From: Bacteroidota bacterium
Lineage (GTDB): Bacteria; Bacteroidota; Bacteroidia; UKL13-3
Direction of reading: 5' to 3'
Length of the DNA: 52,026 bases
NCBI GenBank assembly: GCA_947456185.1
Contig: CANGPW010000012.1
Location: 1-52,026, forward strand
Under the pieces are notes generated by a model that worked only from the letters and a program-made list of their open reading frames with translations, was not told the origin of the DNA and did not search any database. Shown here piece by piece: positions 1-1,899 of the stretch. Position 1 is the stretch's first letter. Each line of letters starts with the position of its first letter. The position numbers were made by a program, and so were the translations under genes.

Positions 1-146
1 TCCTCAAAATTTCCTTCACGAATTAATCGCAAGAACATTTTTGAACCCGTTACATTGGTTCGCTCACCCACATTTACAAAATTGGTTTCTTTTGTAATCA
101 CTAATGGCTCTAAGCCCGAAAGGCGTAATGTATAATCTTTATTCAT
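1..146 (-). CDS. metH: methionine synthase, pterin/cobalamin half (5' part only)
   Basis: The first 48 codons of a minus-strand gene are present; the rest lies beyond position 1. The product starts [15 protein letters not shown] and continues with [13 protein letters not shown], the hallmark entry into the methyltetrahydrofolate (pterin)-binding domain of cobalamin-dependent methionine synthase. In single-chain MetH this LSGLEPL segment directly follows the linker after the homocysteine domain. Here it starts its own gene, so MetH is split, as is known in some Bacteroidota. The pterin, B12 and reactivation domains should follow off-window. The homocysteine half is encoded upstream at 747-1751 and the two would be co-transcribed, but an inverted-repeat unit with a GxxExxY gene lies between them. 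Identity is confident; total length cannot be seen. Confidence 0.9.
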
Positions 147-160
147 TTTTTTGTTTTTTG

Positions 161-196
161 TTTAACCACAGAGGCCACTGAGATTTTTTCACAGAG
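161..196 (+). repeat. left arm (L1) of 36-bp perfect inverted repeat
   Basis: Begins TTTAACCACAGAGGCC and ends TTTTTTCACAGAG. It is the exact reverse complement of 716-751 over all 36 positions. Beyond the arm the similarity fades quickly (about four of the next seven bases match). Confidence 0.9.
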
Positions 197-214
197 AACA
201 CGGAGGAGTTTTTG

Positions 215-250
215 TTTAACCAAAGTGTTCACTGAGTTTTTTACACGGAG
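215..250 (+). repeat. degenerate second left-arm copy (L2)
   Basis: Same orientation as the copy at 161-196 and offset by 54 bp. It starts TTTAACCA, keeps CACTGAG and ends in GGAG. It matches L1 at 29 of 36 positions. The left end of the unit therefore has two tandem arm copies and the right end only one. Confidence 0.75.
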
Positions 251-281
251 AACTTGATGGTTAAATTATATAATTCTTTAT

Positions 282-656
282 CTAATTTGCTAATCTAACA
301 ATTCCGTCTTTTAAATATTTAACATTAAAGTTTATCAAAAGTCCAATTTTATAGTTGCCTAATTTTTGATAAGTTAATAATTGAGCCTTATGAACATCAT
401 TCAACGCCTCAACAGATTTTATTTCAATTACCACTTTATTTTCAACCAATAAATCAATTCTGTAACCTATGTCTAGCTTTACTTCTTCATAAATTAGTGG
501 CATAGGTTTTTCTTTTTCCACAAATAATCCTTCATATTTTGTTAAACGATAAAACAAGCATTCTTTGTAGGCTGATTCCAATAAACCAGGACCCAAAGCT
601 TTGTGAACTTCAATGGAAGCTCCAATTATTTTACTTGTAATTTCATTTATCTCCAT
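282..656 (-). CDS. GxxExxY family protein, PD-(D/E)xK nuclease-like
   Basis: 124 residues from the ATG at 656; an in-frame TTG at 677 would add seven, but the ATG gives the usual family length of about 125. The family signature is visible as GLLESAY (residues 24-30). A nuclease-type core follows: an acidic residue in GYRIDLLV (D68), then VVIEIKSVE with E78-I-K80, and a downstream QLLTY (Q92). This fits the PDDEXK_3/GxxExxY family (PF13366/TIGR04256), whose biological role is not established. There is no signal peptide or membrane segment, so it is probably cytosolic. It sits between the two halves of metH on the same strand, inside a pair of 36-bp inverted repeats, so it would be transcribed from the SAM-riboswitch-controlled metH promoter. 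Nuclease activity is inferred from the motif only. Confidence 0.9.
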   Translation of the reverse strand: MEINEITSKIIGASIEVHKALGPGLLESAYKECLFYRLTKYEGLFVEKEKPMPLIYEEVKLDIGYRIDLLVENKVVIEIKSVEALNDVHKAQLLTYQKLGNYKIGLLINFNVKYLKDGIVRLAN

Positions 657-715
657 GTTCTCAGTTAATTCGTTCAAAAAAATCTTAACGTCCTTTATTT
701 AAATTTCTCGGTGAC

Positions 716-751
716 CTCTGTGAAAAAATCTCAGTGGCCTCTGTGGTTAAA
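716..751 (-). repeat. right arm of 36-bp perfect inverted repeat
   Basis: Exact reverse complement of 161-196. Its outer end overlaps the 3' end of the metH homocysteine-domain gene: the TAA stop at 749-747 is part of the repeat. Confidence 0.9.
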
Positions 752-1751
752 TACCCGAAACAGAATGTAACTCTCTAGGACTGTAATTGGAAGCCATATT
801 AGCAATTGCCTTAATATGATCAGGTGTTGTTCCGCAACAGCCACCTAAAATATTTACCAATCCTTCTTTACAAAACTCTTCTACTTGCTTAGCCATTGCC
901 GCAGGGCTTTCATCATATTGACCAAATTCATTGGGCAATCCTGCATTTGGATATGCACTAACAAAAAATGGTGAATGTGTAGCCATTACTTGCAAATACG
1001 GACGCAAAGCACTTGCTCCCAATGCACAGTTTAAACCGATACTCATTAAAGGTGCATGTTGCATACTTATTAAAAATGCTTCTGTTGTTTGTCCTGATAA
1101 TGTTCTGCCAGAGGCATCTGTAATTGTTCCCGAAATCATAACAGGTAAATGTTTTCCAATTTCTTCAAAAACTTCATCTACTGCATATAATGCTGCCTTG
1201 GCATTTAACGTATCAAATATGGTTTCAATCAATAAAATATCAACGCCACCTTCAATTAATTTGATGGCTTGTTGCTTGTATGCTTTTACTAATTCATCAA
1301 AAGTAGTAGCTCTATAACCAGGATCGTTCACATCAGGACTGATAGACAATGTTCTATTAGTTGGACCCATTGCGCCAGCAACAAACCTAGGTTTATGCGG
1401 TTCTTTTGCTGTCATTTCATCGGCTACCTCACGCGCTATTTTTGCAGAATAATAGTTAATATCATCTACCAAATGTTCCAAATGATAATCAGCTTGTGCA
1501 ATGGTTGTTCCACTAAAAGTATTGGTTTCAACAATATCGGCACCCGCTTCATAATATAAACGATGAATGCCTTTAATAATTTCAGGGTGAGTTATAGAAA
1601 GTAAATCGTTATTCCCTTTTAACGGATATGCGTGGCTAGCCAAAGCTTCATTTCTGAAATCCGCTTCTTCTAATTGATGACGTTGAATCATGGTACCCAT
1701 TGCACCATCTAAAATCACAATTCTTTGTTTTAATATATCGTATATGTTCAT
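747..1751 (-). CDS. metH: methionine synthase, homocysteine-binding half
   Basis: 334 residues, the size of the homocysteine methyltransferase domain alone. It begins [19 protein letters not shown], followed by [12 protein letters not shown] and [12 protein letters not shown]. The zinc-binding cysteines that activate homocysteine are visible as GLNCALGA (C242) and [10 protein letters not shown] (C305, C306). The protein ends shortly after [11 protein letters not shown], exactly where single-chain MetH has the linker to the pterin domain. That domain starts a separate gene at 146. The stop codon lies within the right arm of the 36-bp inverted repeat, so the unit at 161-751 abuts or truncated this gene. 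Upstream at 1900-2000 is a SAM-I riboswitch, so the operon should be shut when S-adenosylmethionine is plentiful. The product acts in the cytosol with the pterin/B12 half to methylate homocysteine. Confidence 0.95.
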
Positions 1752-1783
1752 TTTTTTTCAATGTTCATAGTCTATAGTCGATT

Positions 1784-1823
1784 GACCATAGGTTTATAAA
1801 TTCAAAAGCCATGGACTATGGTC
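1784..1823 (-). other. leader hairpin between SAM riboswitch and metH
   Basis: GACCATAG (1784-1791) and CTATGGTC (1816-1823) form a perfect 8-bp stem with a 24-nt loop, ending about 30 nt before the metH start codon. The surrounding 1767-1830 is made of short CATAGTC/ATAGACTATGG motifs in both orientations. There is no T-tract after the stem in the transcript direction, so it does not look like a standard intrinsic terminator. A role in the expression platform is possible but unproven. Confidence 0.4.
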
Positions 1824-1899
1824 TATTAGCTATTGACTTTTCCAGTAAATTTTTCCGATTGTGTGTTTGACAGCAACGCAATTGCAAAGCATTCATTCA

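Follow-up and report, generated by a model that had tools for sequence, protein, structure and literature searches.

The window, the whole 52,026-nucleotide stretch of Bacteroidota DNA that was analysed, begins with the two halves of metH. Between metH1 (upstream) and metH2 (downstream), on the same strand and under a SAM riboswitch, lies a gene for a GxxExxY protein, as the original prediction had described (Table 1). The gene is enclosed by inverted arms of 51 nt (161-211 and 701-751) that are 90% complementary, and the perfect 36-bp inverted repeats first noticed at 161-196 and 716-751 were confirmed as the outer part of these arms. From base composition alone, about 3e-11 perfect 36-nt inverted pairs would be expected in 52 kb. 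The arms are not unique sequence: each consists of a repeated ~9-nt unit, CACnGAGnn (written out, TTAACCACAGAGgcCACTGAGattttttCACAGAGaaCACGGAG). Because a second copy of the array extends the left side, the unit spans ~155-751. The stop codon of metH1 sits within the outer end of the arm, and in the transcript the arm duplex is predicted to have a perfect closing stem and a free energy of -74.2 kcal/mol. Two contigs overlap by 50 bases at the start of metH2 (C7 1-50, window 100-149), which places the assembly break directly beside the unit. A pattern search found the arm repeat nowhere else in the host assembly, which is 94% complete (four matches, all at the unit; control 0).

Table 1 Features at the metH locus at the start of the window
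Feature	Position	Strand	Remarks
metH2, 5' end	1..146	-	rest on contig C7 of the same assembly (G000)
Left array, outer copy	155..208	.	arm 3' of the nuclease gene; built of CACnGAG units; GGTTAA end on the gene's strand
Left array, second degenerate copy	209..253	.	period 54 nt, 84% alike
GxxExxY / PDDEXK_3 protein	282..656	-	124 aa, ATG at 656; predicted minimal PD-(D/E)xK nuclease
Right array	701..751	.	arm 5' of the nuclease gene; TAA stop of metH1 supplied by its TTAA
metH1, homocysteine S-methyltransferase half	747..1751	-	last ~50 bp co-inherited with the unit
Gene-less inverted array, GACCATAG type	1763..1837	.	between riboswitch and metH1
SAM riboswitch RF00162	1898..2002	-	

Two gene-less arrays lie nearby. 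The array in the metH1 leader has a counterpart in all ten congeneric genomes (G000, the host, to G009), of the CTAGC/CTGGC type in G001, G002 and G009. A further inverted array at 2045-2114 of the window (GTTGATAG / CTATCAAC) is, by eye, of a type that flanks some four-helix-bundle genes (L155, L156).

The enclosed ORF matches PF13366 PDDEXK_3 (E 1e-38, 132.8 bits, cut-off 22) and TIGR04256 GxxExxY (E 1.3e-40, 138.3 bits, cut-off 35). These are its only Pfam and NCBIfam matches, and the HuH/Y1 transposase gene that marks REPIN/RAYT systems is absent. The nuclease core proposed originally (D68, E78-I-K80) was borne out by an alignment of 78 sequences, drawn from 80 loci with L070, L072 and L103 (internal stops) excluded: G22, E27, Y30, D68, K80, Q92 and Y96 are invariant, and E78 is kept in at least 90% of the sequences. 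Cas4/RecB-type nucleases have their motifs in this same order, E, D, ExK, QxxxY. An AlphaFold2 model of the protein (mean pLDDT 96.1) matched SSO0001 (4ic1), which we take to be a Cas4, best among PDB folds (E 8e-4), followed by lambda exonuclease and a Cas4-like protein. Sequence searches yielded no convincing solved relative (one ribosomal chain at E 0.059). By its modelled fold and its conserved D and (D/E)xK, the protein is a member of the PD-(D/E)xK superfamily and a predicted nuclease.

The likeness to Cas4/RecB nucleases thus comprises the fold, the residues D68 and E78-x-K80, the invariant Q92xxxY96 and weak PADLOC Cas4 matches (best E 5e-4). According to PMC5704561, the module that defines Cas4 is an Fe-S module with four conserved cysteines. 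The window protein is unlike Cas4 in its 124 aa and single cysteine, and the unit contains no CRISPR genes; with one cysteine there is no four-Cys Fe-S module, so the protein is not Cas4.

Purifying selection acts on the ORF at metH: the three pairs of orthologues that include G002 have dN/dS of 0.03-0.04, and the remaining three pairs, with too few changes, give 0.00-0.52. GxxExxY scored above cut-off in 183 of 395 genomes sampled from the phylum, about half, with 1-11 matches per matching genome. In open-licence PMC papers, we found no function for GxxExxY or PF13366/PDDEXK_3 and no description of the repeat heptamers or of such repeat-bounded units; a description elsewhere is possible.

We collected GxxExxY loci by the protein alone, not by the arms. 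The motif patterns were written after viewing these loci, and counts at displaced positions and in the opposite orientation therefore serve as the control. The pattern CAC[N][GA][AG]G gave 130 (+) matches in the 100 nt upstream and 132 (-) matches in the 100 nt downstream of the genes (78-80 loci), against a background of a few per 100-nt bin further out. Of the 122 distinct loci for which full flanks were available, 93 had two or more inward-facing units on each side. The corresponding counts were 9 of 122 for outward-facing units and 0 of 111 for positions 1 kb away; the both-sides test failed in the remaining 29 of 122 loci. Eight duplicate loci had been removed for this count (99/130 and 0/118 before removal). 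The check proposed with the original prediction, a search for the arms beside other GxxExxY genes, was therefore positive. The same arms flank these genes across the phylum and sometimes beyond it, which supports the claim that repeats and nuclease form one unit.

The counts rest on slightly different sets of loci. L070, L081 and L103 (stop misplaced or missing) were kept in a 77-locus test of flank similarity and left out of the 122-locus and neighbour counts. Twenty-two loci of the genus were over the cut-off, and the decayed L026 and L032 were left out of the both-sides arm counts. Four of the 30 phylum-sample loci scored under 11 (L213, L217, L219 and L228), and L219 was dropped from later counts (of 36 loci including the phylum sample).

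In the flank-similarity test, 52 of 77 GxxExxY loci had flanks whose inverted similarity was above the highest value of the control, which was displaced by 600 nt; the other 25 did not. By similarity alone, a locus's own partner was the best arm in just 10 of the 77. The arm class was the same on both sides in 63 of 68 classable loci (shuffled mean 19.5), an agreement inflated by relatedness and host composition. On the protein tree the arm class changes 25 times, against a shuffled mean of 51.2. Within the genus, GxxExxY clades differ by eye in their arms, which include CACAGAG, CGCAAAG, C(A/G)CAGATT, ACATAG and other classes. The same kind of arm lies beside copies in Gemmatirosa (Gemmatimonadota), Bernardetia and Bacteroides; none was found beside the Sphingomonas and Fusobacteria copies, and the Treponema copy had an 11-nt match only. 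The Gemmatirosa kalamazoonensis locus (L198) has long paired CGCAGAG arrays with an alignment score of 53.5, each side holding inverted copies; its gene match is in two pieces, making the reading frame doubtful, and its arms are clear.

The units have a characteristic position. A co-directional ORF ends at most 400 nt upstream in 75 of 85 loci with both arms, and in 53 of these 85 the stop of the upstream ORF lies 1-26 nt before the first repeat unit. Co-directional genes lie on both sides in 60 of 80 loci.

Comparison of the metH slot in the ten congeneric genomes revealed that the GxxExxY unit lies there in four (G000, G002, G005 and G007). In the other six, inverted arrays of other repeats enclose an ORF for a four-helix-bundle protein that scores above the TIGR02436 cut-off; one of these ORFs has an internal stop. 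In the proposed search for empty sites among relatives, the unit proved not to be fixed at metH; the congeners that lack it have a four-helix unit in the slot, and no clean empty site was seen. Different units occupy the slot even in the sisters G005 and G008, whose metH1 genes are 97% identical. We viewed the metH slot in 30 of 53 genomes with a metH1 match; outside the genus, GxxExxY is also found there in two genomes of another genus. In a member of a third genus (L124, G040), the space between the two metH halves holds a hairpin of ACAAAGAAACAAAG repeats with no gene.

The G000, G005 and G007 units share 99.2-99.5% identity, with dS of 0.013-0.027, and the adjoining metH1 genes have dS of 0.32-0.39. 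Identity among the three rises sharply ~50 bp before the metH1 stop, stays at 99-100% over most of the unit and drops again in metH2. A near-identical unit beside a diverged metH1 indicates a recent transfer of the whole cassette between species, which agrees with the original view of a transferable unit. Since ~50 bp of metH1 was carried along, homologous recombination at metH is indicated rather than a fresh insertion, and judging from these sequence comparisons, interspecies transfer at metH very likely proceeded through recombination between homologous flanks. Of the four carriers, G000 alone has the perfect outer arms; G005, G007 and G002 have a different sequence in the outer portion of the upstream arm. 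The arms show patchwork changes across these four genomes, and G005 has an additional 54-nt array copy. Neither of the outcomes set beforehand as evidence against the proposal, arms absent beside other GxxExxY genes or a unit universal at metH, was observed.

Two further slots were compared. At rsmI (TIGR00096, after a DedA-family gene), the unit is found in four of ten genomes (G007, G009 and, in decayed form, G004 and G005) and is missing between the same flanks in five (G000, G001, G002, G006 and G008); in G003 the flanks are 4.6 kb apart. By eye, the rsmI slots of G000 and G008, which lack the gene, retain an arm-like remnant. The layout between sufD and sufS was resolved in eight of the ten genomes (all but G000 and G003). 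G004, G005 and G008 have a C(A/G)CAGATT-class unit there, G001, G002, G006 and G007 a CGCAAAG-class gene after a GCCACAGATT-like array, and G009 an unrelated gene-less hairpin. In at least G001 and G006, the outer GCCACAGATT-like repeat is also found on the far side of the gene, and in these two loci (L017 and L019) the CGCAAAG-class GxxExxY gene is nested within GCCACAGATT-class outer repeats. At the rsmI (L030) and sufS (L253) slots, the arm apparently swaps the ATG start of the next gene for GTG and provides the stop of the preceding gene.

No target-site duplication was seen at rsmI or sufD-sufS, where the boundaries are too diverged to exclude one, and no excision product or clean empty site was seen among the loci compared. 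At fixed slots, most of them between co-directional genes, the cassette is found in some genomes, missing from others or exchanged. We rejected a DNA transposon or IS, as the unit has no transposase ORF and no duplication was seen at the (diverged) boundaries of these two slots.

A search seeded with a locus of the ACATAG class unexpectedly gave dozens of short arm matches. With one mismatch allowed, the 16-mer CCACATAGAAACATAG occurred 41 times in G005, 19 in G004, 15 in G006, 11 in G001, 8 in G000, 7 in G008, twice each in G007 and G009 and not at all in G002 and G003; these counts include the arms of the gene itself, and the reversed control gave 0 in the ten genomes. We viewed 24 of the places, and many had an inverted partner within ~90 nt. 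Ten matches in the collected loci, at least one place being counted twice, run CCACATAG...CTATGTGG, and six measured 55-57 nt. Gene-less CCACATAG hairpins occur in G000, G004 and G008, which lack the cognate gene at the orthologous slot; G009 has the cognate gene with only its own two arms and no extra copies. Hairpins without the gene and a gene without extra copies both argue against a simple helper relation. No empty sites for the gene-less hairpins were present among the collected loci. Dispersal was observed for this one arm class in one genus. The window's own CACAGAG class forms no gene-less inverted doublets in the host, and in relatives it forms only a few one-sided gene-less arrays (G004, G005 and G006).

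Array-bounded units are not confined to GxxExxY. Among four-helix-bundle loci of the genus, of which we viewed 30, a subset of those found, the inverted similarity of the flanks exceeded the displaced-control maximum in 27 of 29 (L158, with an internal stop, was left out). The locus's own partner was the best of 29 in 19 loci and in the best three in all 29, with orthologous loci sharing ranks. Visual inspection showed many sequence types among their arms, and CRCNRAG arms on both sides occurred in 0 of 30. Arms and cargo families are not mixed in this sample. Since arrays also surround four-helix-bundle genes, single-gene units bounded by arrays form a guild that extends beyond GxxExxY. The proposal of a new class of selfish element accordingly holds in part: the array-bounded nuclease unit is general, but it is not unique in kind, as the same slot also takes four-helix-bundle units.

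On balance, we lean towards reading the unit as a small chromosomal mobile cassette, with inward arrays of a 7-9-nt unit as its ends and the gene for a minimal Cas4/RecB-type PD-(D/E)xK nuclease between them. It seemingly moves without a transposase and belongs to a widespread and seemingly undescribed kind. In its working, the arrays would adopt hairpin or cruciform folds, either in DNA or in mRNA, their cognate nuclease would recognise and process the folded arrays, and the ends may be copied or recombined into slots just past a stop codon. At slots already colonised, such as metH, the cassette would spread between species by homologous replacement. The logic would be that of a REPIN/RAYT pair, with a nuclease substituting for the HuH transposase. 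The co-inherited tail of metH1 is explained equally well by ordinary recombination, which counts against the mobile-cassette reading. The original idea of an element that uses a nuclease instead of a transposase found no support as a mechanism: no excision product or target-site duplication was seen, and the co-transfer of ~50 bp of metH1 points to homologous recombination at that site.

The cassette is best described as REPIN/RAYT-like in logic and IVS-like in neighbourhood, a member of neither. In PMC3116915, REPINs beside RAYTs are described as a gene flanked by its own inverted short repeats, with the same repeats dispersed as gene-less hairpin doublets. The CCACATAG class is likewise dispersed as gene-less inverted hairpins, and in the cassettes, too, repeat class is linked to protein clade. 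The cassette differs in that its enzyme has a PD-(D/E)xK fold in place of the HuH/Y1 transposase of RAYTs, its arms are tandem 7-9-nt arrays in place of a REP palindrome, several copies occur per genome, and dispersal is seen in one arm class and one genus. It resembles MITEs in that gene-less elements with inverted ends are dispersed in intergenic DNA; unlike MITEs, it has array ends, no target-site duplication that we could see and no transposase-bearing parent.

It is unlikely that the unit is an IVS-like RNA element, in which the two arms pair into a long stem within the metH mRNA, RNase III excises it, the gene is a passenger in the loop and any mobility proceeds via RNA. The strong sense-strand bias, the placement after stop codons and the perfect closing stem predicted for the transcript would fit such an element. 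So would the TIGR02436 protein of the alternative unit at the same slot, as we take this to be the family of the IVS-encoded S23 protein. But one-sided gene-less arrays exist that are unable to form a stem, selection against blocking the operon would equally yield the sense bias, and the unit is without rRNA context. According to PMC4990558, 23S rRNA IVSs hold a small ORF within complementary ends, are cut by RNase III and have a patchy, apparently horizontal distribution. The cassette shares the small ORF within complementary ends and the patchy, apparently horizontal occurrence, and its alternative at metH encodes a four-helix-bundle protein (TIGR02436); unlike a 23S IVS with an S23p ORF, it lies between protein genes, encodes a nuclease and ends in tandem short-repeat arrays. 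Membership of the 23S rRNA IVSs was rejected on location, as the unit lies between metH1 and metH2.

Quite improbable, in our view, is an ordinary host or defence nuclease gene whose arrays would serve as stability or terminator hairpins, kept alike by slippage and conversion and swapped through normal recombination. The 54-nt duplication and patchwork changes that distinguish the arms of G000, G007, G005 and G002, the gene-less arrays in the metH1 leader of all ten congeners and the purifying selection on the ORF are compatible with this explanation. It does not readily account for an arm motif that is conserved in distant hosts and associated with this single gene family, and presence or absence at slots, decayed copies and 1-11 matches per matching genome would be atypical of a host gene.

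A homing-type nuclease, with GxxExxY cutting alleles that lack the unit or hold another one and donor repair copying the unit with a short flank, would suit the block shared by G000, G005 and G007, with its ~50 bp of metH1 and lower identity outside, and the different units of G005 and G008, but we consider it very unlikely, as differing arm classes at many unrelated sites misfit one long recognition site, no cut site was identified and searches of phages and IMG/VR were empty. Carriage by phages was rejected (tblastn matches in 0 of 50,697 phage records; 42 pattern stretches in IMG/VR, none confirmed), as was carriage by plasmids (matches in 8 of 72,556 plasmid records, all below 60% identity; 6 of the 8 retrieved).

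More tentatively, we propose a broader reading in which GxxExxY genes with CACAGAG, CGCAAAG, CACAGATT or ACATAG arrays could constitute a new class of transposase-free mobile element across Bacteroidota and beyond. The minimal Cas4-like nuclease would work in cis on its own arrays and in trans on gene-less hairpins. Such elements would be part of a larger guild of array-bounded single-gene units, including the four-helix-bundle units, that compete for operon slots.

The link to a specific terminal repeat gives GxxExxY proteins a first testable role and candidate substrate. The metH slot that they have in common with four-helix-bundle units connects these two orphan families through a single kind of element, which may account for many of the intergenic short-repeat hairpins in these bacteria.
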